Assembly: GCF_041200025.1 (NCBI RefSeq)
Contig: NZ_CP165628.1
Location: 930,001 to 994,000, forward strand
DNA from: Rouxiella sp. WC2420
GTDB taxonomy: Bacteria > Pseudomonadota > Gammaproteobacteria > Enterobacterales > Enterobacteriaceae
Direction of reading: 5' to 3'
Length of the DNA stretch: 64,000 bases
Both the position numbers and the translations under genes were made by a program. Shown here piece by piece: positions 729-16,124 of the stretch; within the stretch, counting starts at the first letter, position 1, and every line of letters begins with the position of its first letter. Below the pieces are notes generated by a model. The model saw only the letters and a program-made list of their open reading frames with translations, made no database searches and was not told the origin of the DNA.

Positions 729-1502
729 GTGGACAAGGCCGTGGTTTCGCAGGAAAGAAAACAGTATCAGGAAATAGGTCACGATCTGCGTGAAAAAATC
801 AAACAGGGACATTTTGCTATTGGCTCGCGCATGCCCCCCGAGCGCAATATGGCTGAAACTTATGGCGTGAGCCGTACTATTGTCCGCGAAGCACTGCTGA
901 TGCTTGAGCTGGAAGGGATTGTAGATATCCGTCAGGGATCAGGCGTTTACGTTGTACGCATTCCTCTGGAAGAAGAAGGGCGGGATGATTCTTTGTATCA
1001 GGGGCAGATTGGGCCTTTTGAACTCCTGCAGGCGCGACAGCTGATTGAGAGCAACATCGCTGCTTTTGCTGCCAAAATGGCCACTAAAGCGGACATTGAA
1101 AACCTGCGCCGCACGCTGGAGCAGGAACAGAGTGCCATTGTTGCCAATGATGAAAGCGGCGATAACGACAAGCTGTTCCACCTGCTGATTGCCGGGGCCA
1201 CGCAAAATCAGATGCTGCTGGATTCAGTTAAAAACATCTGGGCCCATCGAGAATCTAGCCCGTTATGGAAACAGCTGCACAGCCATATTGCTACCCGTGG
1301 TTATCGCCTGAAGTGGTTGGCCGATCATCAAAACATTCTTGCCGCACTGCGCCGACGCGACGTGATGGGCTCCTACCAGGCGATGTGGCAGCACATGGAA
1401 AACGTCAAAAATACTCTGATGGAGCTTTCTGACGTTGATGCTCCTGAGTTTGACGGCTACCTGTTTGAGTCGGTGCCGATCTTCCAGGGTAAAATGGTAT
1501 AA
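729..1502 (+). CDS. GntR-family (FCD subfamily) regulator, ExuR/UxuR-like
   Basis: The 257-residue protein has an N-terminal winged helix-turn-helix (about residues 10-78, with P-P-E-R-N and S-R-T-I-V-R-E-A typical of GntR) and a C-terminal all-helical FCD ligand domain. Phrases such as Q-A-R-Q-L-I-E-S-N-I, L-H-S-H-I and M-W-Q-H-M-E-N-V-K closely match the E. coli hexuronate repressors UxuR and ExuR. The start is GTG behind an AAGGTGG ribosome-binding site. It follows the PTS/glucosidase genes on the same strand, so it may control them rather than hexuronate genes; that is inference from position. A GC-rich hairpin without a T-run lies in the short gap before it. Confidence 0.85.
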   Translation: MDKAVVSQERKQYQEIGHDLREKIKQGHFAIGSRMPPERNMAETYGVSRTIVREALLMLELEGIVDIRQGSGVYVVRIPLEEEGRDDSLYQGQIGPFELLQARQLIESNIAAFAAKMATKADIENLRRTLEQEQSAIVANDESGDNDKLFHLLIAGATQNQMLLDSVKNIWAHRESSPLWKQLHSHIATRGYRLKWLADHQNILAALRRRDVMGSYQAMWQHMENVKNTLMELSDVDAPEFDGYLFESVPIFQGKMV

Positions 1503-1533
1503 CGTAAGCGTTAACCTGTCGTGTGACTTGATT

Positions 1534-1572
1534 CCCCTTGTTTTCAATTTATTTATTTTTAATAACAAGGGG
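1534..1572. terminator. Inverted repeat between convergent genes, possible bidirectional terminator
   Basis: CCCCTTGTT and AACAAGGGG pair across an AT-rich 21-base loop, between the GntR gene and the convergent galR. The T-tract is weak, so function as a terminator is only likely. Confidence 0.4.
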
Positions 1573-1580
1573 ATAGAAAG

Positions 1581-2585
1581 CTACTGGTTGGGTACGCTGA
1601 CCGAGTGACGACGTACCAGCGTAGGGCTGAACATATTGGTCGTTTCCGGCAGCGGTTGGCCTTTGGCGAGAGCAAGTGCCAGCTGCGCGGCCTGATTGGC
1701 CATAGCGATGACCGGATAACGAATGGTGGTCAGCCTTGGGCGCAGATAGCGTGAGATCAGCACATCATCGAAGCCAATCAACGAAATTTCTCCCGGCACA
1801 TCGATGCCGTTATCGCTCAGCACTGACAGCGCGCCAGCGGCCATCGGATCGTTATAGCAAGTTACCGCGGTAAAGTTTTTACCGTGGCCAAGCAGTTCGG
1901 TAATCGCCTGCTCGCCGCCGATTTCATCGGGTTCTGCAGAAACAATCAGCCTTTCATCGACCGGAATTCCGTGCTCATTCAATGCATCAAGATAACCTTG
2001 CAGCCGGTCGCGGGCGTCGGAAATATCGTGGGTCGAACACAGGATAGCGATGCGCTGATGCCCGGCCTGAATAAGGTGTCGAGTGGCGAGCCAGGAGCCG
2101 TAACGGTCGTCAAGCGCCACGCAGCGGTGCTCAAAACCCGGCAGAGTTCGGTTGATAAGCACCATGCCCGGGATCTGTTGCATCAGACTGCCAAGCTCAT
2201 CCTCAGGCAGCATTTTTGCGTGGACCACCAGCGCAGCGCAGCGATGGCGGATCAGCTGCTCAATGGCCTGCCGCTCTTTATCAATGTTGTGGTAACCGTT
2301 ACCAATCAGCAAAAAATTGCCGGTGGTATAGGCAACCTGTTCAACCGCTTTTACCATGGCACCGAAAAAAGGATCGGAGACGTCAGAGACGATCAGGCCC
2401 AGCGTTTCGGTCGCCTGCTGGGCAAGTGCTCGAGCATTGGCATTGGGATGATACTGCAAGTGTTGCATCGCGCTCATTACAGCATCGCGCGAGCTTTCGC
2501 TGGCTTTGGGGGAGTGATTTATCACGCGTGAAACTGTTGCGACAGAAACGCCCGCCAGTCTTGCGACATCCTTAATCGTAGCCAT
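1581..2585 (-). CDS. galR: Galactose operon repressor GalR
   Basis: A 334-residue LacI-family repressor. The N-terminal helix-turn-helix I-K-D-V-A-R-L-A-G-V-S-V-A-T-V-S-R is identical in pattern to E. coli GalR, followed by the hinge and a periplasmic-binding-protein-like sugar domain up to L-V-R-R-H-S-V-S. It matches GalR better than its paralogue GalS (for example F-F-G-A-M-V-K-A-V-E-Q-V-A and F-S-P-T-L-V-R-R). The reading frame extends 35 codons further upstream, but the family start and the operator lying inside that extension fix the ATG used here. It represses galactose transport and catabolism genes in the cytoplasm and is released by galactose. Confidence 0.95.
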   Translation of the reverse strand: MATIKDVARLAGVSVATVSRVINHSPKASESSRDAVMSAMQHLQYHPNANARALAQQATETLGLIVSDVSDPFFGAMVKAVEQVAYTTGNFLLIGNGYHNIDKERQAIEQLIRHRCAALVVHAKMLPEDELGSLMQQIPGMVLINRTLPGFEHRCVALDDRYGSWLATRHLIQAGHQRIAILCSTHDISDARDRLQGYLDALNEHGIPVDERLIVSAEPDEIGGEQAITELLGHGKNFTAVTCYNDPMAAGALSVLSDNGIDVPGEISLIGFDDVLISRYLRPRLTTIRYPVIAMANQAAQLALALAKGQPLPETTNMFSPTLVRRHSVSVPNQ

Positions 2586-2608
2586 TTTGAGTATCCAACG
2601 AATTGAGG

Positions 2609-2620
2609 GTAAACGTTTAC
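2609..2620. promoter_or_regulatory. GalR/LacI-family operator palindrome upstream of galR
   Basis: GTAAACGTTTAC is a perfect 12-bp palindrome centred about 30 bp before the galR ATG. It fits the gal operator pattern with a central CG and GTNAA half-sites, so autoregulation by GalR is the simplest reading. Confidence 0.65.
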
Positions 2621-2866
2621 ATTGCCTAGTTTTGCGGAAAAAGTCGGTGTCTGCAAGGGACGTAGATCGCAACTTCTCAAGCAAGCGCATTGAAACAGCG
2701 AATAAACCTCGGCAAAAGGGGCTATTTTAAGCCTTAAAGCTCGTCAGATTTTTGAAATGGCGCGTTAAGACGTTATTCACTCTTTTATGCCGATTTGTGA
2801 TTTGAGTACCGCAAGCAGGATTGCTATTTTGTTAGCGATAACCATCAAATCGCAAAAAAGAGAATC

Positions 2867-5125
2867 ATGTCAATTAAACGCTATCCGCAGCTTGCTCACT
2901 GGGGTGCCTATACGGCCGTGGTTGAAGACGGCCGCTTAGTCAGGTGTGAACCTTACTCTGCGGATGCCGACCCTTCGCCGATGCTGGCCTCTATTCCAGA
3001 ACTGGTTTATTCCGACAAGCGTATTCGCAAACCTGCAGTCCGTCGTTCCTGGCTGCAAAAACGCGAAAACAGCGACCGAACCCTGCGCGGCAAAGAGGAT
3101 TTTGTTGAAGTTGATTGGGATCTGGCGCTGGATTTGGTGGCTGAAGAAAATCGCCGCGTGCGCGACAGCTACGGTGCCTCCGGGATTTTCAGCGGCTCTT
3201 ACGGCTGGTCATCAGCCGGACGCCTTCATCATGCCCGCTCTTTGGTGCGACGTTTTTATTTCGCCGGTGGCGGCGCTGTCGATCAGCAGGGTAACTACAG
3301 CTGGGGTTCGGCGCAGTTTTTCCTGCCTTATGTGATTGGCACCTACACGCCGCTTACTGGCAGGGTTACGACCTGGCCGAGCGTGGTTGAGCATTGCGAT
3401 ATTTTGCTGGCGTTCGGTGGGCTGGCGTTGAAAAATGCCCAGGTCGCCTCCGGCGGCGCGGTGGAACACACCCTGAAACCTGCGCTGGAGCAGTTGGCAA
3501 AAAAAGGCACACCGGTAATTAATATCAGCCCGATGCGCGATGACTGCCCTGAATTTGTCAATGCCGAATGGATACCTATCCGCCCGAATACCGATGTCGC
3601 ATTGATGCTGGCGTTAGGCTATGAGATCCAAAGAAAAGAGGCGCAGGATACTGCGTTTCTCGCCAGTCACTGCGTGGGTTATCCGCAATTGGCCGACTAT
3701 CTCAACGGTGTTAAAGACGGTGTAGCGAAAACACCTGCGTGGGCCAGCGCTATCACTGGAGTGCCTGCCGCGCGTATCGCGAAACTGGCAGACCAGCTGA
3801 TTGGCGTGCGCAGTTTTATCACTTGTGCCTACGCGGTTCAGCGAGCCCATCGCGGGGAACAGCCTTACTGGATGATGATTGCGCTGTCGGCAATGTTAGG
3901 GCAAGTCGGCCTGCCGGGCGGCGGTTTTTCATTTGGTCATGGTTCGATGAACGGCGTCGGCAACCCGCGTTTCGATACGCCGGGGCCTGCGCTCAGCACG
4001 GGTCCAAACCCGTCGGGTCTGTCGATCCCGGTGGCGCGAATCAGCGATATGCTGCTTAACCCCGGAGAATCCTACGAGTTTCAGGGGGAAACCCAGACTT
4101 ATCCAGACATTCATCTGGTGCATTGGGCCGGCGGCAATCCGTTCCATCACCATCAGCAGCTCAATCGGCTGGTCGAAGGCTGGCAAAAGCCCGACACGGT
4201 CATCGTGCAGGACAATGTCTGGACTCCCGCGGCCCGCATGGCCGACATTGTGCTGCCAGTGACGACATCGCTCGAGCGCAATGATATTGGTGGCTCATCG
4301 CGCGACAGATTCGTGCTGGCGATGCATCAGGCTGTTCCTGTGCAGCATCAGGCGCGAAATGATTTCGATATTTTTGCCGAACTGGCTGACAGGCTGGGAT
4401 ATCGCGAAGCTTACACCCAGGGGCGCGACGAAGACGCCTGGCTGCGCCTCATCTATAAGCAATGCGGGCAGGCGCAGGACGGAACCAACATTGAGTGGCC
4501 CGATTTTGAGACTTTTTGGGAGCGCGGCTACATCGAGTTGCCCAAACCGGAGAAAGATTATGTGTTCTTTGACTCGTTCCGTAAAAGTCCGCGCGCTAAC
4601 CCTCTAGGCACGCAAAGCGGCAAGATTGAGCTGTACAGTCAGAAAATTGCTGACTATCACTATGATGATTTCGCCCCTCATCCAGAATGGCAGCCGCCGA
4701 TCGAGTGGCTGGGATCGCAAACGGCGAAAAAGTGGCCGCTGCACTTGATATCTATTCAGCCGAAGGACCGTTTGCACAGTCAGCTTGACCAAACATCGTT
4801 GGCGCAAAACAATAAAATCGGCGGTAAGGAAACGCTGTTTATGCATCCTGAAGACGCCGCCCAGCGCCAGCTTAAAAACGGTGATGTGGTGAAAGTCAGT
4901 AATGAGCGGGGTAGCTGTCTGGCTGGAATTTCCTTTAATGACGGTATTACCCGCAGTGTCGTACTGATGGCTACCGGGTCATGGTTCAATCCGGGATTCG
5001 GCAAAAAATGGCAGGAAACCGAGCAGTCAGGTAATCCGAATGTTCTGACGCTTGATATCGGCACATCGCGCCTGACGCAAGGGCCTAACGCCATGAGTTG
5101 TCTGGTAGAAGTATCGGCTGTTTGA
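2867..5125 (+). CDS. BisC-like molybdopterin S/N-oxide reductase
   Basis: A 752-residue enzyme of the DMSO reductase superfamily. It aligns along its length with E. coli BisC and TorZ: the start A-H-W-G, the block F-S-G-S-Y-G-W, the molybdenum-ligand region Q-G-N-Y-S-W-G-S-A-Q (Ser at residue 145), and the C-terminal MGD-binding domain around S-I-Q-P-K-D-R-L-H-S-Q-L. Such enzymes reduce biotin sulfoxide, methionine sulfoxide or amine N-oxides using bis-MGD. There is no Tat or Sec signal, so it is probably cytoplasmic like BisC. No FeS or membrane partner is adjacent. In E. coli nothing of this type lies between galR and the omr RNAs, so it looks like an insertion. The exact substrate is not visible. 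Confidence 0.85.
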   Translation: MSIKRYPQLAHWGAYTAVVEDGRLVRCEPYSADADPSPMLASIPELVYSDKRIRKPAVRRSWLQKRENSDRTLRGKEDFVEVDWDLALDLVAEENRRVRDSYGASGIFSGSYGWSSAGRLHHARSLVRRFYFAGGGAVDQQGNYSWGSAQFFLPYVIGTYTPLTGRVTTWPSVVEHCDILLAFGGLALKNAQVASGGAVEHTLKPALEQLAKKGTPVINISPMRDDCPEFVNAEWIPIRPNTDVALMLALGYEIQRKEAQDTAFLASHCVGYPQLADYLNGVKDGVAKTPAWASAITGVPAARIAKLADQLIGVRSFITCAYAVQRAHRGEQPYWMMIALSAMLGQVGLPGGGFSFGHGSMNGVGNPRFDTPGPALSTGPNPSGLSIPVARISDMLLNPGESYEFQGETQTYPDIHLVHWAGGNPFHHHQQLNRLVEGWQKPDTVIVQDNVWTPAARMADIVLPVTTSLERNDIGGSSRDRFVLAMHQAVPVQHQARNDFDIFAELADRLGYREAYTQGRDEDAWLRLIYKQCGQAQDGTNIEWPDFETFWERGYIELPKPEKDYVFFDSFRKSPRANPLGTQSGKIELYSQKIADYHYDDFAPHPEWQPPIEWLGSQTAKKWPLHLISIQPKDRLHSQLDQTSLAQNNKIGGKETLFMHPEDAAQRQLKNGDVVKVSNERGSCLAGISFNDGITRSVVLMATGSWFNPGFGKKWQETEQSGNPNVLTLDIGTSRLTQGPNAMSCLVEVSAV

Positions 5126-5208
5126 ATCTCACCGCTGGTTACACTTTGCGAAGCTATGTTGCGATTGGCTGCTGGAGGTTGGCTGGCCCGAGCGGCTACA
5201 TTAGCAGT

Positions 5209-5301
5209 CCCAGAGGTATTGATTGGTGAATCATCAGCATACTTTGTGTGTTGATACCGATTACACTTGCACCAACCTACGCGGATGCGTAGGTTTTTTT
5301 T
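5209..5301 (+). ncRNA. omrB: OmrA/OmrB small regulatory RNA (galR-proximal copy)
   Basis: The RNA begins CCCAGAGGTATTGATTGGTGA, the hallmark 5' seed of OmrA/OmrB (first bases listed only), has a variable middle, and ends in the terminator CCTACGCGGATGCGTAGG plus eight Ts. E. coli OmrA and OmrB base-pair with mRNAs for outer-membrane proteins through this 5' end with Hfq, and are induced by EnvZ-OmpR. A TACATT -10 lies 7 bases before the first C. The position in the galR-aas interval matches E. coli; assigning this copy to OmrB rests on order only. Confidence 0.9.
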
Positions 5302-5452
5302 CGCCTGCATTCGTGACGTTAACTTTTTATTCACATCTAAAGAACCTTGATATTACATCCAGTGTGGTAATTTTACAGTTGGTTGCAGTTTGCGCAGAAC
5401 TCTTGCGATTGAAAGGTAGTGCATTGCGGCAGTGTTCTTTAATGTTGGTGAT

Positions 5453-5546
5453 CCCAGAGGTATTGATTGGTGAATCATCCAACATGTTCTGCATGTTGAA
5501 ACCGATTAAAATTGCACCAACCTACGCAGATGCGTAGGTTTTTTTT
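5453..5546 (+). ncRNA. omrA: OmrA/OmrB small regulatory RNA (aas-proximal copy)
   Basis: This is a second copy about 240 bp downstream of the first. It shares the 5' seed CCCAGAGGTATTGATTGG and a near-identical terminator (CCTACGCAGATGCGTAGG plus Ts), with a diverged centre. A TAATGT -10 lies 7 bases upstream, and both copies share a TTGCGATTG block upstream, possibly part of the OmpR-responsive region. Tandem duplicate sRNAs with a common seed and different middles are exactly the E. coli arrangement. The naming as OmrA is by proximity to aas. Confidence 0.9.
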
Positions 5547-5670
5547 GCCTCAGATTTTTCTCTGATTTTTTTCTTAAACTCCCTTACCTGTCGTCAACCA
5601 AAGCCCCATTATGCTAACCTCGTTAACTGCCTGTTCTTATTCGAATAGGTTCATATAACAGGAGAACGGG

Positions 5671-7839
5671 ATGCTCTATCGGTTGTTACACTCATTTTTT
5701 CGCGCCTTGTTTAAGGTGATATTCCGCATCAGCGTAACGCCGGAAAACGCCCAGTTCACCTATCCTAAAATGTTACTGACCCCCAATCACGTTTCGTTTC
5801 TCGACGGCATGCTGCTGGTGCTGTTTCTGCCGATAAAGCCCGTATTCGCCGTGTACTCGACCATTAACGAGAGCTGGTATATGCGCTGGTTGAGCACTTA
5901 TATCGACTTTGTGCCGCTAGATCCTGCCAAACCGATGGCGATTAAACGCTTGGTGCGCGAAATCGAAAAAGGGCGACCGGTAGTCGTATTTCCTGAAGGA
6001 CGTATTACCGTGACCGGCTCGTTGATGAAAATCTATGATGGCGCGGCTTTTGTTGCTGCAAAATCCCAGGCAACGGTGATCCCTATCCGCATCGATGGCG
6101 CAGAGTTCACGATTTTTAGCCGGCTTTTGGGCAGCTTCAAATTGCGCTGGTTCCCGAAAATCTCAATCAACATTCTGCCCGCGCAAACTGTGGCCATGCC
6201 AGAGGCTCCGCGCGCTCGTGACCGTCGTGTTCTCGCAGGGCAGCAGCTGCACGGCATCATGATGAACGCCCGAATGGCGACCCGCCCACCCGAAACACTG
6301 TATCAGGCACTGCTTTCGGCGCAGACTCGCTATGGCCGCCGCAAACCCTGCATTGCCGATATCGCATTCAAAGAAGACAGCTATCAGGGGCTGTTGAAAA
6401 AATCGCTGGGCGTAAGCCGTATTTTGCAACGCTTCACCCGCGAGGGGGAGCACGTCGGCATGCTGCTGCCCAATGCTACCATCACCGCGGCGGCGATTTT
6501 CGGTGCCTCGATGCGCAACCGTATTCCTGCATTGCTTAACTACACCTCCGGAGCCAAGGGGATCAAAAGCGCGGTGAAAGCGGCGCAGATTGAAACCATC
6601 GTCACTTCGAGACAATTTTTGGAGAAGGGCAAGCTTACCCACCTGCCGGAGCAGGTCACTGAAGTCAAATGGGTTTATCTGGAAGATCTAAAAGATACGG
6701 TGACCAAAGAGGACAAACTGTGGATCTTGTTCCATCTCATTTTCCCGCGCCGCGCGATGCTCTTTCAACAGCCAGATGATGCGGCGCTGGTGCTGTTTAC
6801 TTCAGGCTCCGAAGGCAATCCCAAGGGCGTAGTACATTCACACGCTAGCCTTATCGCCAACGTCGAACAAATTCGCACGGTCGCTGATTTCACCCCGCGC
6901 GATCGCTTTATGTCAGCGTTGCCGCTGTTCCACGCTTTTGGCCTTACCGTGGGCTTATTTACCCCGTTGATGACCGGTGCGCGCGTGTTTCTTTATCCAA
7001 GCCCATTACACTACCGAATCGTGCCGGAGCTGGTTTACGACCAAAACTGTACGGTGCTGTTTGGCACCTCGACCTTCCTGGGTAACTACGCCCGCTTTGC
7101 CCATCCGTACGATTTCGCGCGCGTGCGTTATGTTGTGGCCGGTGCCGAAAAGCTTTCTGAAAGTACCAAACAAATCTGGCAAGACAAGTTTGGCCTGCGC
7201 ATTCTTGAAGGTTACGGCGTGACTGAATGCGCGCCGGTGGTGGCCATCAACGTGCCAATGTCGACCAAAATCAATACCGTGGGCAAAATCCTGCCGGGTA
7301 TGGAATCACGCCTGATGCCGGTGACGGGGATCGATAAAGGCGGTCGACTGCAATTACGCGGCCCTAACATCATGAAAGGCTATTTGCGCGTAGAGAATCC
7401 GGGCGAGCTTGAACTGCCGACGGCAGAAAACGCGCTGGGGGAAATTGAGCCGGGCTGGTATGACACGGGCGATATTGTCACGCTGGATGAGCAAGGTTAT
7501 TGCGCTATTCGCGGTCGAGTGAAGCGCTTTGCCAAACTTGCCGGCGAAATGGTGTCGCTGGAAAACGTTGAGCTGTTGGCGCAACACGGATCTCCAGAAG
7601 CCCAGCATGCCGCCACTTCTCGCAGTGATAATGCTAAAGGGGAAGCGCTGGTGTTGTTCACCACTGACCCGCAGCTGACGCGCGATCAGCTCAGCAAAAG
7701 TGCTCGCGAGCTGGGCATTCCAGAGTTGGCCGTGCCGCGTGATATTCGCGTTATCAAAGCGCTGCCGCTGCTCGGAAGCGGAAAACCTGATTTTGTTACC
7801 CTGCGCGAAATGGCAGAAAAACCGGAGAGTAAAGCATGA
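5671..7839 (+). CDS. aas: Bifunctional acyl-ACP synthetase / 2-acyl-glycerophosphoethanolamine acyltransferase
   Basis: A 722-residue inner-membrane enzyme that reacylates lysophosphatidylethanolamine brought in by LplT. The N-terminal acyltransferase domain has the HX4D motif (His40, Asp45 in N-H-V-S-F-L-D-G) and F-P-E-G-R. The C-terminal half is an AMP-forming acyl-activating enzyme with [11 protein letters not shown] and Y-D-T-G-D. Length is close to E. coli Aas (719). It overlaps the next gene by 4 bases (ATGA), so the two are translationally coupled. Confidence 0.97.
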
Positions 7840-9044
7840 TTAAGCCCCTGGGGAGCAAGTTTCCCCTGATGTCCCGTGGCATGACTGCGGTTATCGTCGC
7901 GCAGTTTTTATCCGCCTTTGGTGATAACGCCTTGCTGTTCGCGACGCTGGCTCTGATCAAACAGCAGCTTTATCCCGACTGGAGCCAGCCAGTGCTGCAA
8001 ATGGCCTTTGTGGCTGCCTATATTATTCTTGCGCCATTTGTTGGCCAGTTTGCCGACAGCTTTGCCAAGGGCAGGGTGATGATGTTTGCCAACGGGTTGA
8101 AACTCATTGGCGCGTTGGTAATTTGCTTTGGCTTTAACCCATTCCTGGGATACGGGCTGGTTGGCGTTGGCGCTGCGGCCTATTCTCCGGCCAAATACGG
8201 CATTCTCGGGGAAATCACCTCCGGCGATAAGCTGGTCAAGGCCAACGGTCTGATGGAGTCCTCGACCATCGCGGCAATCCTGCTGGGATCGGTCGCGGGC
8301 GGCGCTCTGGCCGACTGGCATATCACGGCGGCCCTGATGATTTGCGGGCTGGCCTATGCGGCTGCCGTGGCGGCCAACGTGTTTATTCCCAAACTCACGG
8401 CGGCACGCCCGGGGCAATCCTGGGATCCTCGCCGCATGTCATCGACCTTTTTCCACGCCTGCCGCTCACTGTGGGCCGATGCCGACACGCGTTTCTCTCT
8501 GGTTGGCACTAGTTTGTTCTGGGGAGCGGGGGTGACATTGCGATTCCTGCTGGTGCTGTGGGTGCCGGTAGCATTGGGGATTAGCGATAACACTACACCT
8601 ACTCTGCTAAACGCGATGGTCGCCGTGGGAATAGTCTTTGGTGCCGGTGCTGCAGCACGTTTGATAACCTTGAAAACGGTGCAGCGTTGTCTGCCTGCGG
8701 GTATCGGCATTGGCGTTGTGGTGGTGCTATTTGCCCTGCAACACAGCATGCTGAATGCTTATGTTCTGCTGGCACTGATTGGCGTGCTCGGCGGCTTCTT
8801 CGTGGTGCCATTAAATGCTCTATTGCAGCATTTAGGCAAAGAGACTGTCGGCGCGGGCAATGCGATTGCCGTGCAAAATCTTGGTGAAAATACCGCGATG
8901 CTACTGATGTTGGGGCTTTACTCGCTGGTGGTATTGGTGGGAGCGCCGGTTATTGCTATCGGCGTCGGCTTCGGCGTGGTATTCGCGCTGGCGATTGCGG
9001 CTCTATGGGCTTGGCAGATTAAACAAAAACGCAGCAGAAAGTAA
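7836..9044 (+). CDS. lplT: Lysophospholipid transporter LplT
   Basis: A 402-residue MFS-type carrier with about 12 hydrophobic segments. It flips lysophosphatidylethanolamine across the inner membrane to feed Aas. The N-terminal [12 protein letters not shown] and [10 protein letters not shown] are typical of LplT. The start codon overlaps the aas stop and a strong hairpin terminator follows, so aas-lplT is a closed two-gene operon as in E. coli. Confidence 0.96.
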
Positions 9045-9061
9045 AACTCCGTAGAAAAAAT

Positions 9062-9085
9062 AAAGGGCGCTGCGTGCGCCCTTTT
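9062..9085. terminator. Rho-independent terminator after lplT (shared with tas)
   Basis: AAGGGCGC and GCGCCCTT form an 8-bp stem around TGCGT, with As on one side and Ts on the other, so it can act in both directions between the convergent lplT and tas genes. Confidence 0.85.
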
Positions 9086-9101
9086 GCAATTCTGTAATCG
9101 C

Positions 9102-10142
9102 TTATGGCGCAGGAATGGTAAAGCGCTTGTGGATGGCTTCCAGTGAATTAATCACTTCTTCGTCCAGCGTCAAGTCCTGGCTGTCGATGTTAATCTTCAG
9201 CTGTTCCAGCGTGGTTGCACCCAGCAGAGTGCTGGCAACAAATGGCTGTTGGCGAACAAATGCCAGCGCCATTTGCGAAGGATCCAGATTCAGCTTTTTC
9301 GCCAATCCGACGTATTCGGCAATCGCTGCTTCCGACTGGGCTGAAGAATAACGGGTAAAGCGGCTAAACAGCGTATTACGCGCGCCTGCCGGTTTTGCGC
9401 CATTCAGATATTTGCCGCTCAGCGTACCAAATGCCAGGCTTGAGTAAGCCAACAGTTCGACCCCTTCGTGCTGGCTAATTTCCGCCAAACCAATCTCAAA
9501 GCTGCGGTTCAGCAAGCTGTAAGGGTTTTGGATGGAGACAATGCGTGGTAAATCATGTTTTTCTGCCAGCTGCAGATAACGCATCACACCCCAGGGCGTC
9601 TCGTTTGACACACCGATATAGCGGATTTTACCGGCACGCACCTGCTCGTTCAGTGCCTCGAGAGTTTCCAGCAGGGTTACCGCCGAGTTGTCTTCGCTGT
9701 AGGTGTAGCCAAGCTTGCCGAAGAAATTGGTCGGGCGCTGGGGCCAGTGTAACTGGTACAGGTCAAGGTAGTCGGTATTAAGACGTTTCAGGCTGGCATC
9801 CAGCGCCGCACGAATGTTTTTGCGATCCAGCACCTGCCCTGGGCGAATCGACGCATCATTGCCTCGTGAAGGTCCTGCTACTTTACTGGCAAGGATAATT
9901 TTTTCACGATTGCCGCGCGCCTTAATCCAACTGCCGATGTAGCTTTCAGTCAAACCCTGAGTTTCCGGACGCGGAGGGACAGGATACATTTCTGCAGTAT
10001 CAATCAGGTTGATCCCTGCCGCAACGGCGTAATCGAGTTGCTGGTGAGCTTCTGCTTCACTGTTTTGTTCACCATAGGTCATGGTGCCTAATCCCAGTAC
10101 GCTCACTTCTAAAGAACTGTGGGGTATACGGTGATATTGCAT
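9102..10142 (-). CDS. tas: Aldo/keto reductase Tas
   Basis: A 346-residue NADP(H)-linked aldo/keto reductase, the same length as E. coli Tas and matching it closely (M-Q-Y-H-R-I-P-H-S-S-L-E-V-S start). Catalytic residues are in place: Asp48 and Tyr53 in D-T-A-E-M-Y-P, the Lys in A-S-K-V-A-G-P and the His in Q-L-H-W-P-Q-R-P. In E. coli tas complements tyrosine auxotrophy under starvation; the physiological substrate is unclear. It is the last conserved gene before the inserted cluster. Confidence 0.96.
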   Translation of the reverse strand: MQYHRIPHSSLEVSVLGLGTMTYGEQNSEAEAHQQLDYAVAAGINLIDTAEMYPVPPRPETQGLTESYIGSWIKARGNREKIILASKVAGPSRGNDASIRPGQVLDRKNIRAALDASLKRLNTDYLDLYQLHWPQRPTNFFGKLGYTYSEDNSAVTLLETLEALNEQVRAGKIRYIGVSNETPWGVMRYLQLAEKHDLPRIVSIQNPYSLLNRSFEIGLAEISQHEGVELLAYSSLAFGTLSGKYLNGAKPAGARNTLFSRFTRYSSAQSEAAIAEYVGLAKKLNLDPSQMALAFVRQQPFVASTLLGATTLEQLKINIDSQDLTLDEEVINSLEAIHKRFTIPAP

Positions 10143-10676
10143 TGCCTGTCTTCCTTAGTGTCTGAGAATGTCTGGCTGGCGCTTGAATGTGTGGTCGTTG
10201 AACCGTGCTGCATGAGCAGGCATCGCCCTCTTATAGCCAAACAAGCGCGTATCTAAGCAGCCACGCATTATTGACTATATACAAGGGATGCCGGAGGGGG
10301 AAGAGCAAAGGAGTAAAGCGCCAGTTTTGCTACCTTGAGGTATGTGTGGGCAGGAGTAAATACTTTTCGTTTTTAAGCGAATTTTATCAGAGTTTATTCA
10401 TTAGTAAGTTATATTTTATTTAAAATAAATTGATTTATTAAATACATATTAATATTTGTTTTAATTATTAAAATCATGAGAGTTTGTTTTGCAGTAGTAA
10501 TTTGAAGTGGATCTCTATTTTGTAAAATAGTGGTGAAATATCAAGTTCGCGCTGTTTTTTTGCTTAATAAATTACTATTCTCATCGCTCTGGCTAACCAG
10601 TGCGATAGTTGTTTTTACTAAAAGTTATTATAAAGCTTAAGCCATTTATCCTCAAGGAAGAGGGAGGTGCTCATTC
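10143..10676. other. AT-rich intergenic region upstream of the inserted cluster
   Basis: This 534-base stretch has no supported gene. Its base composition changes from ordinary near tas to strongly AT-rich from about 10375 onward, with long A/T runs. It probably holds the cluster promoter and could bind a xenogeneic silencer such as H-NS. No convincing -35/-10 pair, tRNA, direct repeat or integrase remnant could be picked out by eye. Confidence 0.5.
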
Positions 10677-11402
10677 ATGTCCAAGCCTGTCAAAAAGATT
10701 AGTATTCTTGCTGGCAATTCAAGAGTCAGTATAAATGATAATAATAACATTGATATTGAATGCCAAGTGGCAGCTTTTGAGGCTGCCCTCAAATTTGCTC
10801 ATAAGATTAGAGAAGATCAGGGGTATCTTCCAAAAATATCAGTAGCTTTCGATCATATAGGTATTTTTCGCCTTCAGTTTTTGACTGAAGGACTGACTAA
10901 TTCTCAAAAACGGCATCCTCGAATAAATAATTTACATCCAACCATAAGAAAGGTATACGAACCTGTTTCAGAAAAGTACCAAATACCGCTGGATAAAATA
11001 ATCGCCATTCATGAGGATTCTGCCAGGCAGCATTTAATGCATATAATTTCTACTAAAGATATTTCGCAAGATATTTATCAAAGGCTTGTAACTAAAGTCT
11101 ATAGTAATGAAATGGTGAAAGATGAATCAATTGTGGCTCAGGCACAAAGCCTGAAATTGACTTGCGGAGCTATAACAAAAGAATATTTTGATAGAGCTGC
11201 AGGAGGAAAGAAGGATGCTCATGCATTTTTAGACGTGTTCTTTGAAGAAAGCCCCTGGTCAAAAAGCTTGATATTTGCACGCGGCATACAGTTAAGTCAT
11301 TTGCTAGGTCTCAATACTGCAATTAGGTTAAATCTTGTCAGCGAAGCCGGTGAGATTAGTCGAGGAGAGATCATCTTTCCTCCAAAATTCATCAGTTCTT
11401 AA
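10677..11402 (+). CDS. Unrecognised 241-residue protein, first gene of inserted cluster
   Basis: I do not recognise this family. It is a soluble-looking alpha/beta protein without signal peptide or membrane segment. Visible blocks include an N-terminal strand K-K-I-S-I-L-A-G-N-S-R, F-D-H-I-G-I-F-R-L-Q-F near residue 58, a charged H-E-D-S-A-R-Q-H-L near 112, and L-T-C-G-A-I-T-K-E-Y-F-D-R-A-A near 161. There are only two cysteines (29 and 163). No PP-loop, rhodanese or radical-SAM motif is present. An AGGGAGGTG ribosome-binding site supports the ATG. The cysteine desulfurase starts 29 bp downstream, so this protein may be the sulfur acceptor or the biosynthetic enzyme; that is inference. The gene is AT-rich compared with its chromosomal neighbours. 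Confidence 0.85.
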   Translation: MSKPVKKISILAGNSRVSINDNNNIDIECQVAAFEAALKFAHKIREDQGYLPKISVAFDHIGIFRLQFLTEGLTNSQKRHPRINNLHPTIRKVYEPVSEKYQIPLDKIIAIHEDSARQHLMHIISTKDISQDIYQRLVTKVYSNEMVKDESIVAQAQSLKLTCGAITKEYFDRAAGGKKDAHAFLDVFFEESPWSKSLIFARGIQLSHLLGLNTAIRLNLVSEAGEISRGEIIFPPKFISS

Positions 11403-11430
11403 AATAAGAAATTTTATAAAGGAAAAAAAA

Positions 11431-12612
11431 TTGAGCAGCTGCAAGGGACCTATATATTTAGACAATATTGCAACTACCAGGATAGATCCGCAAGTGCTTG
11501 ATGCCATAATTCCTTATTTAACAATTAATTATGGAAATCCTTCAAGTGAAAGCCATTCCTTGGGATGGGATGCTTCCAGTGCTGTCGAACAGGCACGGGC
11601 CGAGATTTCTAAAGCGATAAATGCTCATCATTCACATCAAATTGTGTTCACCTCAGGGGCTACTGAATCAGTAAATCTGGCAATTTGTGGTATGCAAAAA
11701 AAAGCTTCTGGCCGTCATATTATTACCTCGACAATTGAACATAAATCGGTGCTGGAAAGTTGTGCGAGACTTGAAAGCCAAGGTATTGAAGTCACTTACT
11801 TAGCTCCGCAAAGGGATGGGGTAGTATCACCTTCGGCAGTCTACGATGCAGTAAGAGATGATACCTACCTTGTGTCGATAATGGCTGCTAACAATGAAAT
11901 AGGTTCCATTCAAAAAATTGAAGAAATAGGGAAAATTTGTCTCGATAAAAATGTCGTATTTCACACGGATGCCACGCAAGCGGTAGGTAAAATATACTTT
12001 GACGTTCAGGCAATGAATATTGATATGGCTTCGTTTTGCGCGCACAAGATTTACAGCCCCAAGGGTTCTGGAGCGCTGTATATAAATAATTCATTAAAAA
12101 AAATAATATTGGAACCTTTGATCTTAGGCGGAGGGCAAGAAAATGGCTTGCGTTCTGGGACTTTGAATGTTCCTGGAATTGTCGGTTTTGGGCATGCAGT
12201 AAGAATCGCAATGGAAACTCTTCAACAAGAGTCGATTAGACTAAAAGGATTAAAAAGTATTTTTCTTGAAAATATTAATGTTGATCACGATGGGTTTTGC
12301 ATCAATGGTCATCACCAGGAATGCCTGCCTGGTCTATTAAATATTTCTTTTTTGGGTATTGATGCCGACTCTTTATTATTAGAGATCCCTGAAATAGCTT
12401 TATCAGCGGGATCAGCATGTAATTCGGCTGGGAGACAACCTTCCCATGTTCTTAAGGCGATTGGCCTAAGCGATGCCAACTCACGGTCAAGTGTGCGTTT
12501 GGGGTTCGGAAGGTTTAATAACGAAAAAGAAGTAAAATACGTTTGCCTGAGAATTAATGAGGTTCTAAAAAAACTTCGCAATATGGTGCCCACGCCCTTC
12601 ATCACTAAATAA
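11431..12612 (+). CDS. Cysteine desulfurase, IscS/NifS type
   Basis: A 393-residue PLP enzyme that takes sulfur from cysteine to form an enzyme persulfide. It aligns throughout with IscS: start P-I-Y-L-D-N-I-A-T-T, His104 in E-H-K, Asp180 and Gln183 in H-T-D-A-T-Q, the PLP lysine Lys206 in A-H-K-I-Y-S-P-K-G, and the active-loop Cys330 in S-A-G-S-A-C-N-S-A. TTG is the likely start: AAAGGA lies 7 bases upstream and the residue numbers then match IscS, whereas an upstream ATG would overlap the preceding gene by 68 bases. No iscR, iscU or fdx is nearby, so it is not the housekeeping isc operon. A dedicated sulfur donor for the cluster is the best inference. Confidence 0.9.
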   Translation: MSSCKGPIYLDNIATTRIDPQVLDAIIPYLTINYGNPSSESHSLGWDASSAVEQARAEISKAINAHHSHQIVFTSGATESVNLAICGMQKKASGRHIITSTIEHKSVLESCARLESQGIEVTYLAPQRDGVVSPSAVYDAVRDDTYLVSIMAANNEIGSIQKIEEIGKICLDKNVVFHTDATQAVGKIYFDVQAMNIDMASFCAHKIYSPKGSGALYINNSLKKIILEPLILGGGQENGLRSGTLNVPGIVGFGHAVRIAMETLQQESIRLKGLKSIFLENINVDHDGFCINGHHQECLPGLLNISFLGIDADSLLLEIPEIALSAGSACNSAGRQPSHVLKAIGLSDANSRSSVRLGFGRFNNEKEVKYVCLRINEVLKKLRNMVPTPFITK

Positions 12613-12632
12613 TTATTTAAATGGAGTTTAAA

Positions 12633-13796
12633 ATGCGAACGACCTCAGCGCTGTTTTTATTATTTGGAACCTTATTTATGGCCGCGGGTTATGGCGCTAC
12701 CTTTCTGATATCAAGCTACTTTAGTATGCAGGGAGGGAGTGACATAGACACCGGCATAGCGATGAGTTTTGCATTGATAGGCACATTGATCGGGGTACCT
12801 TTAGTCGGGTGGTTTGCCGGATTGGTTGAAGCCGCGTGGCTTGCTGCAATAGCCGCTTTGACCTTAGCGGCAGGGTTTCTGATGCTTGGCTCGTCGAGTG
12901 ATAATTGCGGACACATAATCAATTTTGCCGCGTTGCTTATTGGCCTGGGATGGGGAATGTTTTATATCAGCGGGCCAATGGCATTATCAGAACGTATCAA
13001 TGATTTAAATCGAGGCAGTTGGTTTACTCGTTTTAGTGCCTTCCAAATGGCAGGCATTTGTGGCGGCCCGATATTACTTACCGCAATCGTTGAACAGTCA
13101 GAAGTGAGTCTGCATTCTGCATTTAATTATGTTGGGCTTGCCGGTGTGCTGGCATCTTTTTTATTGATCGTGTTTGGTGTTAAAGAAAGGCGGAGTATCC
13201 ATGAGTCAGCTACCAGATCATGGGTCAAAAAATTGCCCCAAATTGGCTTAAGTAGCGCAATCAGGCCCATCATTATGGTGGGCTTAGGCGGTTGCGTATT
13301 TTCTGCGATAATGACTTTTCAAAGTTCACTGGTTGATGGTACAGATTCACGGGCAAGCACTTTCTTTGCCGTCCACGCCGTAACAGTGGTTATTTCCAGA
13401 CTCTTATTTGCTCGCTATCTTTCTGTATTACCGCGTTTAAAAATGGTTAGTTCATTAATGCTGTGTTTAATACTCGGCGTTCTGTGCATGCTGGGGCTCA
13501 ATATTCATCCTTCATTCCAGATAATGTCTGCCGTGTTGACCGGTTTGGGATACGGACTGGTTTATCCAGTCATCCAAACCTGGGCTATCAATGAATCTGA
13601 TTTAGAAAATAGGCATGCAGCACTGACCTGGTTTGTTGTTTCTTATTTTGTTGGAATCTTCGGTTTTCCGGTATTTGGAGGCTGGGTATTGGTAGAAGCT
13701 GGAAAAGTGTGTTTTATAAGCCTTGTGGCGGTGATAGCCAGCCTTGAACTTGCTGTCGCTACCGTGCCCGCCATTCGCAGAACACATCCATTGTAA
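12633..13796 (+). CDS. MFS transporter, third gene of inserted cluster
   Basis: About 387 residues with roughly 12 hydrophobic segments, little else but short loops, and a central cytoplasmic loop near residue 185: a typical major facilitator. An in-frame ATG 12 bases earlier has no ribosome-binding site, whereas the second ATG follows TGGAG at good spacing and was chosen. It begins 20 bp after the desulfurase, so it is probably in the same operon. It is less AT-rich than the two genes before it. Export of a product of the cluster, or self-resistance, is inferred from context; substrate cannot be read from the sequence. Confidence 0.85.
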   Translation: MRTTSALFLLFGTLFMAAGYGATFLISSYFSMQGGSDIDTGIAMSFALIGTLIGVPLVGWFAGLVEAAWLAAIAALTLAAGFLMLGSSSDNCGHIINFAALLIGLGWGMFYISGPMALSERINDLNRGSWFTRFSAFQMAGICGGPILLTAIVEQSEVSLHSAFNYVGLAGVLASFLLIVFGVKERRSIHESATRSWVKKLPQIGLSSAIRPIIMVGLGGCVFSAIMTFQSSLVDGTDSRASTFFAVHAVTVVISRLLFARYLSVLPRLKMVSSLMLCLILGVLCMLGLNIHPSFQIMSAVLTGLGYGLVYPVIQTWAINESDLENRHAALTWFVVSYFVGIFGFPVFGGWVLVEAGKVCFISLVAVIASLELAVATVPAIRRTHPL

Positions 13797-13883
13797 ACAC
13801 AAGTGCCGGCATAACTTCACGCCGGTGCTTAAATTTAACGGATGTTAAAGCTGCTGAATTCAATGGGTAAGACACTCGCCAAA

Positions 13884-14102
13884 TCAGCGTTCCATAATTT
13901 CGGTAACTTGATCGTTATTGATTTGGCGATGATTGCCTTGTTGGTCTTCATAGCTCAGTAAGCCGGTACTTTTATCAAGCTCTGGCTTGCCGTTGGTTAA
14001 AATCATATCGCCATCTTTAGTTGCCATCACATAGTCGCTCGAGCAACCTGCGAGGATAAATGCCAAAGCTATCGTACTGACGATCTTCACTGCATTTTTC
14101 AT
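13884..14102 (-). CDS. ygdR: YgdR, DUF903 lipoprotein
   Basis: A 72-residue lipoprotein precursor. The signal peptide ends in the lipobox L-A-G-C, followed by [15 protein letters not shown], near-identical to E. coli YgdR. The fold is a small beta barrel of unknown function. The frame runs 17 codons further upstream, but the signal peptide and the family start fix the ATG. In E. coli ygdR adjoins tas and ygdQ; here the three-gene cluster separates it from tas, and ygdQ is missing between it and mutH. Confidence 0.93.
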
Positions 14103-14213
14103 TATGTATCCCCTGGAATGGGTCATCACAGACCACTCATTTAAGATTAGCAAAAAAAGAGCATAATGCAGCGCCGAGCTTAGCTGTGGCGTGTTATTTG
14201 GTAATAAAAAGGT

Positions 14214-14900
14214 TTATAACCAAAAATGACGAGCCAGCAATTCGCGAGTAAAACGCTTCTTTAAATAAAAGCCACGCGGCAAGGTCATGATTGGCTGGCC
14301 CATTTCCCCGATAGCCTCGGTTCTGGCCTTATTATTGGCTGCTTTAGGGCGTAGTTGCAGGAACTCGCCGTGACGAGCTGTAATACTCTCAACTTTTCCC
14401 AAAACGATAAGATCCATTAATTCTTCCCAATCCTGCCGTAGCTGCTCGTCCTCTTCTACTGATGGACTCCAAAGCAGCGGGCTGCCGATTCTGCGCACCG
14501 CCAACGGGATTTGTCGCTCGCCTTCCACAGGTATCCACAGTACTCGTGCCAGCTTGTGTCTGACGTGACTGCTTTCCCAGGTCACACCGCTATTGCCAGT
14601 TAACGGCGCCACGCAGACAAAGGTTGTCTCTAAAGGGTTGCCTGAGGCATCTATCGGAATAGTTTTGAGTTCAATGCCTATCTCCGGAAAATCTTGCTCT
14701 GGCTTGCTGCCTGCACTAGCGCCTAGATAAACTTCAAGCAACATGCCGACCCAACCTTTTTCCCTTTTCAGGTCAGGAGGGATCGCCATATTAGCCCGCT
14801 CAGCAAGCTCCCCTAAGCTATAACCTGCCAAAGACTGAGCACGGTGAAACAGGGCATGTTCATCTTGAGGTGGCTTAAGAGCGGGCAGAGGGATCGACAT
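14214..14900 (-). CDS. mutH: DNA mismatch repair endonuclease MutH
   Basis: 228 residues, as in E. coli. MutH nicks the unmethylated strand at hemimethylated GATC when activated by MutS-MutL. The catalytic D-X6-E-X-K triad is exactly placed: Asp70, Glu77 and Lys79 in [10 protein letters not shown]. Its presence implies Dam-directed mismatch repair in this organism. It is transcribed away from the DnaA-box region and divergently from rppH. Confidence 0.97.
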
Positions 14901-15096
14901 AAAAAAGTCTCATTTTCATTGGTCAAAAAACAAACAATCGTTCGCGTCGACAGAAAATTAAATCTCGACGCTGTGATTAACCCGAATAATAGCATGATTT
15001 GTCGCAGGTTTTTTTATCCTTCATTCCCAATGATTAAGCTAATTTTTAGAGTTGACCACCCGTTGAAGGGCATAATGAACAGGATCTTCCACCTAG

Positions 15097-15421
15097 TTAT
15101 CCACAGATTTGTGGGATAACCCACAATATTTGATAGCACTGTTTCCATTTACAGGCTTGACTAGGGGGTTTTTATGAGGTTTTGTCCCATATATAACCTG
15201 TATTGGGGATTTATCTGTGGATAAAATCAACATTGTGCGATCTTTCGCCACTTTAGGATCTCTGCTGGTTTCGCCTGAGGATAACACCTGTATTAAAGCG
15301 GTGGATATCTTATTATTTATATGTTTTATATGAATTTTATTTTATATTTTTGCGAGGTGCCACGCAGGTTGGAATTAGTTTTACCCCTCTTACTCTTATG
15401 TTCTTCACACACCTATCCACA
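15097..15421. promoter_or_regulatory. DnaA-box cluster at the DARS2 position (mutH-rppH intergenic)
   Basis: The 696-base gap between mutH and rppH has no gene. It holds a consensus DnaA box TTATCCACA at 15097-15105, a facing TGTGGG-ATAA-CCCACA palindrome at 15110-15125, a second perfect box on the other strand (TGTGGATAA, 15216-15224) and a one-mismatch box CTATCCACA at 15413-15421. In E. coli this same interval is DARS2, which exchanges ADP for ATP on DnaA and promotes replication initiation with IHF and Fis. Homology rests on location plus boxes. I could not place IHF or Fis sites with confidence. Confidence 0.75.
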
Positions 15422-15596
15422 GAAAAAGTGAATAAAATTGGCGTAAAACGCGAGAGGCTGTTTATAACTTCGATAATTTGACAAAGTTATCCCTGATTTC
15501 CCCATTTGAACTGAGTGATAACCAGTGGTTTACCGCCTAGTAGTAGTATGAAACAATCAGTGTATCTATGCATTTTAAGCTTATCGAGGTAGTCCG

Positions 15597-16124
15597 GTGA
15601 TCGATGATGATGGCTACCGCCCGAATGTTGGTATCGTAATCTGTGACAAACAGGGGCAAGTGTTATGGGCCCGTCGATATGGACAGCACTCATGGCAGTT
15701 TCCGCAGGGGGGCATCAACCCCGGAGAAACGGCCGAGCAAGCCATGTATCGTGAACTGTTTGAAGAAGTGGGATTGAGTAGAAAAGACGTTCGAATTCTG
15801 GCTTCGACTCGCAACTGGTTACGCTATAAATTGCCAAAACGTTTGGTGCGTTGGGACACAAAGCCGGTCTGTATCGGCCAAAAGCAAAAATGGTTCCTTC
15901 TACAACTCATGTGTAATGATGCAGACATCAATATGCAGCGCAGCAGCACGCCCGAGTTTGATGGGTGGCGTTGGGTGAGTTTCTGGTATCCGGTTCGTCA
16001 GGTAGTGTCATTCAAACGTGACGTGTATCGCCGGGTGATGAAGGAATTTTCCACCACTGTGATGCCAATGCAGGAAGTGCCGGTTAGCCGAACACCTCCT
16101 GCTTATCGTCGTAAAAGAGGCTAA
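15597..16124 (+). CDS. rppH: RNA pyrophosphohydrolase RppH
   Basis: 175 residues, near-identical to E. coli RppH over the first 155. It removes pyrophosphate from the 5' triphosphate of mRNAs so RNase E can start decay. The Nudix box spans residues 38-60 (G-G-I-N-P-G-E-T ... R-E-L-F-E-E-V-G). The start is GTG, as in E. coli, giving [12 protein letters not shown]. ptsP begins 11 bp after the stop, so the two are cotranscribed. Confidence 0.97.

Follow-up and report, generated by a model that had tools for sequence, protein, structure and literature searches.

A portable three-gene cassette with a cysteine desulfurase, found between tas and ygdR in Rouxiella, that may make an exported sulfur-containing small molecule

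The closest described counterparts of the locus analysed here are the 6-thioguanine operons, tgs of Staphylococcus chromogenes and ycf of Erwinia amylovora (PMC7994395). The roles that its authors predict are desulfurase for TgsA, sulfur transfer for TgsB, and efflux for TgsD. Thiotetronate biosynthesis likewise needs a desulfurase of its own, since loss of StuS abolished Tu 3010 production according to the available portion of a second study (PMC5518548). Here we describe a cassette of three genes in Rouxiella sp. WC2420, encoding a protein of no assigned family (X), a cysteine desulfurase (S), and a transporter of the major facilitator superfamily (MFS), which lies in a stretch of 64,000 nucleotides (the window; positions 930,001 to 994,000 of contig NZ_CP165628.1, with window positions counted from its first letter). 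We propose that the three genes form a self-contained portable cassette that makes an exported sulfur-containing small molecule, and judge this proposal about equally likely to be right or wrong.

The resemblance to tgs lies in a compact operon with a desulfurase dependent on pyridoxal phosphate (PLP), TgsA, and a predicted efflux protein, TgsD. As far as tgs is set out in the material available from that report, it differs in having a TtuA-like sulfur transferase and Nudix enzymes, whereas X matches neither family and has no PP-loop; the cassette also has only two soluble proteins, and an MFS protein replaces the EmrE-type protein (PMC7994395). The insert that holds the cassette contains only these three genes, so the PP-loop sulfur transferase and Nudix hydrolase that define the tgs/ycf type of operon are both missing from it. 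With stuS/stuJ, as covered in the accessible part of the source, the cassette shares a cysteine desulfurase, which is required there for a secondary metabolite. It departs from that system in that stuS/stuJ has a thiouridylase-like partner and lies apart from the polyketide synthase cluster, while X has neither a PP-loop nor a family match (PMC5518548).

The order X-S-MFS is kept in all 15 complete copies that we found, and these lie at several chromosomal sites. The site in the window is tas/ygdR; the common site in a second genus, g412, is beside an enolase-like open reading frame (ORF). Other copies lie beside greB with a response-regulator gene, taken for ompR, on the other side (L080, L081), beside pgpA (L085), near a feoB-like ORF (L066, read by eye, and L089, by ORF length), beside a pilotin-like gene and a spermidine synthase gene (L088), and at two further sites (L090, L091). 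Three Photorhabdus-like loci beside eno, greB, and pgpA (L086, L080, and L085) align over one block of about 3.5 kb, which runs from about 250-300 bp 5' of X to about 30 bp 3' of MFS. In 12 locus pairs, the aligned DNA is limited to the cassette and its edges, short repeats aside. A scan of 20 flanking ORFs named no integrase; one IS200-like transposase was found near L090.

Pairwise divergences of X, S, and MFS are concordant over the 15 copies (Mantel r 0.985, 0.95, and 0.956; 0 of 5000 permutations reached each value), and we therefore conclude that the genes travel together. The alleles of the window's own genome (G000) and of G394, in the same genus, are 53% (X), 62% (S), and 64% (MFS) identical, yet tas is 97% and lplT 89% identical between the same genomes. 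This exceeds the divergence of the cassette between the two other genera, g412 and g11 (X 75-81%, S 79-88%, and MFS 71-84% identical). The cause could be an exchange of entire alleles at this locus, or unusually rapid evolution. In all three genes, the g11 copy in G1060 is nearer to g412 copies than to the other complete copies of g11, an affinity that suggests transfer; nearer still to G1060 are the broken copy in G1023 and the MFS-only G1079. Across three genera we see a conserved unit that is portable and has an unclassified protein family as its core. As a separate observation in g11, a second apparent gene cluster stands beside the cassette in L089 (1976-7706) and beside a remnant in L092 (2257-7980); in L089, a class V aminotransferase, an AMP-binding enzyme, and an FAD/NAD oxidoreductase are among its products.

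The search for X covered 1608 sampled genomes, counted with overlaps between searches. With a single-sequence query, X was found in 1 of 394 genomes in the order sample and 1 of 398 in the phylum sample, the window's own genome both times. The class sample gave 3 of 369 (the own genome and two weak matches) and the family sample 7 of 343 (five strong matches and two at E 0.006-0.008). By genus, X is present in 5 of 6 genomes of the window's genus, 9 of 12 of g412, and 6 of 30 of g11, or 20 of 48 in total; it is complete (at least 230 amino acids) in 15 genomes, divided 3, 8, and 4 among the same genera. The two weaker family matches (G315, G870) were taken for chance given the numbers searched and were not counted, and the weak class matches (G1241, G1183) were treated in the same way. 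G398 gave two further weak matches, neither of them counted: L017 continues its broken X, and L018 was taken for chance. X was absent from the searched plasmids, phage records, and viral contigs, and a single-sequence scan of contigs, which reaches close relatives only, gave one locus, in Serratia sp. M24T3. X may also occur outside the three genera, which reflect the sample.

From its gene context, g412 looks like Photorhabdus, and g11 is probably Xenorhabdus. Both of these genera are rich in bioactive metabolites, which is relevant if the labels are right. In 6 of the 9 g412 loci with X, the cassette adjoins ORFs of 433 and 545 amino acids, and inspection by eye of these ORFs in L065 points to enolase and CTP synthase. 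The eno gene of P. luminescens TT01 is plu0913, a genomic island spans plu0914-plu0938 (PMC2530875), and LuxR regulators are given as plu0917-plu0925 (PMC2717986) or plu0915-plu0925 (PMC4235431) in the portions of these papers available. The cassette could correspond to plu0914-plu0916, which fits the first range of LuxR genes and does not fully fit the second. In the accessible parts of the literature that names plu0914-plu0917, no metabolic function is given for them. Titles and the starts of abstracts on Photorhabdus and Xenorhabdus desulfurases or NifS do not describe the cassette, with one lead aside: the part of PMC3814329 available lists, among the genes under negative control of FliZ in Xenorhabdus nematophila F1, two neighbours that encode a cysteine desulfurase and a protein of unknown nature. 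In that part, the pair is numbered near flgL and flgK; no flagellar gene is among the identified flanks of the cassette, and the pair could not be tied to it. L065 also has, near its cassette, an array of similar LuxR-like ORFs (1193-5142, plus strand, read by eye).

In the window, the cassette fills an insert between tas and ygdR at about 10336-13882 (Table 1). The first-pass annotation had described three closely spaced plus-strand genes that split tas from ygdR, and both the genes and the split are borne out, with gaps of 28 and 20 bases where it had counted 29 and 20. The two flanking genes are adjacent and 107 bp apart in E. coli SCU-115, a single annotated record, and tas-like DNA is present in 5373 of 5426 E. 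coli genomes. In G395, of the same genus as the window, the cassette is absent and the gap between tas and ygdR is about 380 bp; this is the sole genome of six in the genus with neither X nor MFS. Alignment of the window with G395 places the junctions at 10335/10336 on the left and before 13883 on the right. Homology to the empty site ends at the same left point in G396 and G398, and about 20 bp earlier in G394. The insert had earlier been drawn from 10143; about 190 bp upstream of tas is ancestral and the insert begins at 10336. The reported AT-rich region is seen as a windowed GC of 0.32-0.47 in the insert versus 0.50-0.60 across 6000-10250, with low GC also outside it, at 0.37-0.51 in 5000-6000 and 13750-15750. 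Because the DNA beyond the insert at 13750-15750 is also low, GC marks its left edge only.

S has the features of a group I cysteine desulfurase: membership in the aminotransferase class V family, the PLP lysine, the histidine, and the catalytic cysteine loop that it shares with IscS and NifS. The motifs around these three residues match those of the genome's own IscS-like protein, which is encoded by a separate gene and is 48% identical to S, in agreement with the earlier report of a desulfurase with its catalytic residues. S is unlike IscS and NifS in scoring below the equivalog cut-offs (448.6 bits against a curated cut-off of 643.2 for the IscS model TIGR02006; for the DndA model, 397 against 480 bits), in having no partner genes of the iron-sulfur cluster (ISC) system in the insert, and in having X as a constant neighbour. 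No scaffold or ferredoxin gene is present inside the insert, as had been claimed. The start of S (11431) and that of MFS (12633, MRT...) were chosen by fit to relatives.

That S falls under the curated cut-offs of these specific desulfurase models could also be explained if it were a PLP enzyme acting on another cysteine-like substrate, as a lyase or desulfinase, with X performing the next step and an amino-acid-like product exported with no sulfur transfer via X. The conserved residues of X, which are mostly not cysteine, would fit this too. We consider it unlikely, since the catalytic Cys loop, the His, and the PLP Lys are intact in every one of the 16 S copies that are full-length or nearly so. 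Another explanation takes up the good scores of S against the PADLOC models of DndA (491.5 bits) and SspA (488.7 bits): X and S would thiolate a macromolecule (tRNA, DNA, or protein), with MFS as a passenger. Partner genes of the Dnd (DndB-E) or Ssp (SspB-D) type are missing from the insert and were not named in the flanking ORFs scanned elsewhere, with the remaining genomes unsearched, and X has neither a PP-loop nor a P-loop. In addition, the divergence of MFS tracks that of X and S, and macromolecule thiolation seems to us quite improbable.

X had been described as a protein of unknown family, and this agrees with our searches, which gave no above-chance match in Pfam, NCBIfam, PHROGs, PDB, or PADLOC. 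The window protein itself had no match in Pfam, NCBIfam, PADLOC (run on this protein only), or PDB, and one match in PHROGs, at E 0.13. Its relatives and profiles gave chance-level matches only, the best being KHA (0.059) and DSBA (0.074) in Pfam and 0.064 in PHROGs; against PDB, the best values were 0.1 with a 14-row profile and 0.32 with a 4-row profile, again at chance level. PP-loop, P-loop, Rossmann, and CxxC patterns were found in none of the 15 X proteins. By these searches, X is an unclassified protein family. Its single invariant cysteine, C163, sits in the block KLTC.AITKEYF, and the family has many invariant His, Arg, Asp, Glu, and Gln residues besides, as an enzyme active site would have.

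The simplest scheme for the preferred reading runs from cysteine to a persulfide on S, then to X, to a metabolite, and to export, because of the family chemistry of S and the constant three-gene content. S would draw sulfur from L-cysteine and carry it as a Cys330 persulfide, as its family and residues suggest, and chemistry of this kind is established for the desulfurases. X would accept the sulfur derived from S, plausibly on the invariant C163, and might pass it to a widely available primary metabolite. The MFS protein would export the product and may protect the producer. The first-pass annotation had likewise suggested production and export of a thiolated small molecule, which it took for an antimetabolite or a signal. 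In tgs, too, a desulfurase of the operon's own stands next to a protein with a predicted efflux role (PMC7994395). The substrate, the product, and the activity of X are inferences. The sulfur-product interpretation is thus partly supported, the best available but unproven.

The MFS protein scores 80.4 bits against PF07690 (cut-off 33.4) and has 11 hydrophobic segments in a simple hydropathy scan, in line with the about 12 of the superfamily. Its outward transport is presumed from context. Divergent relatives of the same MFS subfamily occur on plasmids of Phyllobacterium (49% identical), Paraburkholderia (41-45%), and Caballeronia (42%); one of them has a LysR regulator beside it and another a PLP-dependent aminotransferase-family protein, and in the two regions that carry annotation the adjoining genes include none annotated as a desulfurase. 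Since the direction of an MFS protein is unreadable from sequence, and these relatives have such neighbours, the cassette might be catabolic, with MFS importing a sulfur compound that X and S degrade for its sulfur. An importer left without its enzymes would seem to serve no purpose, but of the ten genomes in which the cassette is broken, partial, or a remnant (G396, G398, G1054, G1011, G1059, G861, G1023, G1077, G1079, and G1085), seven have a complete MFS and none of these seven has intact X and S; a catabolic role therefore appears rather improbable. MFS is broken or not found in G1059, G861, and G1085. It is complete with no trace of X or S in G1077 and beside a 21-residue tail of S in G1079, and MFS can therefore stand without the other two genes. 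The first-pass annotation had named two findings that would refute its reading, a known family with a non-sulfur role for X and the three genes lying apart in relatives; X fits no known family, and all 15 complete X copies have S and MFS next to them. The retention of MFS after enzyme loss is a hint of a self-protecting exporter.

The decay in these ten genomes could also mean that the cassette is a neutral genomic island, currently functionless. Against this, 19 of 22 gene pairs show a ratio of nonsynonymous to synonymous substitution rates (dN/dS) of 0.04-0.17, and we regard a neutral island as highly improbable. One and the same deletion in G396 and G398 has brought the beginning of X up against the end of S. 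In G396 (L020:7028-7711, minus strand), the deletion leaves an open ORF of 227 amino acids in which an N-terminal portion of X continues into a C-terminal portion of S; the catalytic Cys loop is retained and the PLP lysine is absent. In the decayed X of G398, about 110 bp (L021:9389-9502 compared with L020) are by eye less similar to G396 than the near-identical surroundings, perhaps through recombination with another allele.

Several points weigh against a sulfur-containing product and a self-protecting exporter. The product is hypothetical, and X is tied to S by genomic association only, since neither a family nor a sulfur-transfer motif can be recognised in it. The PLP-lysine motif of S in the window reads HKIYSPKG (residues 205-212, 12043-12066) versus HKIYGPKG in the other 15 S proteins, and this Ser-for-Gly change may lower the activity of S in the window strain. 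dN/dS is higher in 3 of the 22 pairs, which have few changes (X 0.62 and S 0.23 in the conspecific pair G000/G397, and MFS 0.34 in G396/G398). One genome, G1057, is the only reverse case, with X and S complete and a frameshift near the N-terminus of MFS, which might reflect an assembly error. The asymmetry in favour of MFS is not significant by a two-sided sign test done by hand, either at 7 versus 1 (p ~0.07) or at 6 versus 1 with the G396/G398 deletion counted once (p ~0.13). The S fragments of G1011 and G1054 still look constrained (dN/dS 0.05 and 0.09), and therefore decay there is recent and the survival of MFS in these genomes says little.

Table 1. Positions in the window of the inserted DNA, its genes and key codons, and the flanking genes
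Feature	Position	Strand	Remarks
Inserted DNA (cassette and leader)	10336..13882	.	Empty-site homology of G395 ends at 10335 and restarts at 13883
AT-rich leader, presumed to hold the operon promoter	10336..10676	+	Mobile with the genes in the Photorhabdus-like genus
Gene X, 241 amino acids, no family, no hydrophobic segment	10677..11402	+	Conserved in 15 complete copies
Cys163 codon of X, sole family-invariant cysteine	11163..11165	+	
Gene S, group I (IscS/NifS-type) cysteine desulfurase, 393 amino acids, TTG start	11431..12612	+	
Lys206 codon of S, PLP lysine, motif HKIYSPKG	12046..12048	+	Role taken from family
Cys330 codon of S, catalytic loop SAGSACNS	12418..12420	+	Role taken from family
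MFS transporter, presumed exporter	12633..13796	+	Start from relatives; ORF spans 12621-13796
tas, left flank	9102..10142	-	
ygdR, right flank	13884..14105	-	

Beyond the right flank, ygdQ, which lies between ygdR and mutH in E. coli, is missing at 14106-14213, and the gap between ygdR and mutH is about 110 bp.

A bolder form of the proposal, which we offer tentatively and think possible but doubtful, is that X founds a new sulfur-transfer family that forms C-S bonds with no ATP-binding PP-loop. X and S would then be among the smallest pathways to a thio-metabolite, carried on a 3.5-kb unit that passes between host-associated enterobacteria, and strains that lose production would retain the exporter for immunity. 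If true, X would transfer sulfur without belonging to any of the known ATP-dependent families, and the cassette would be a compact, easily cloned source of a sulfur-containing natural product.

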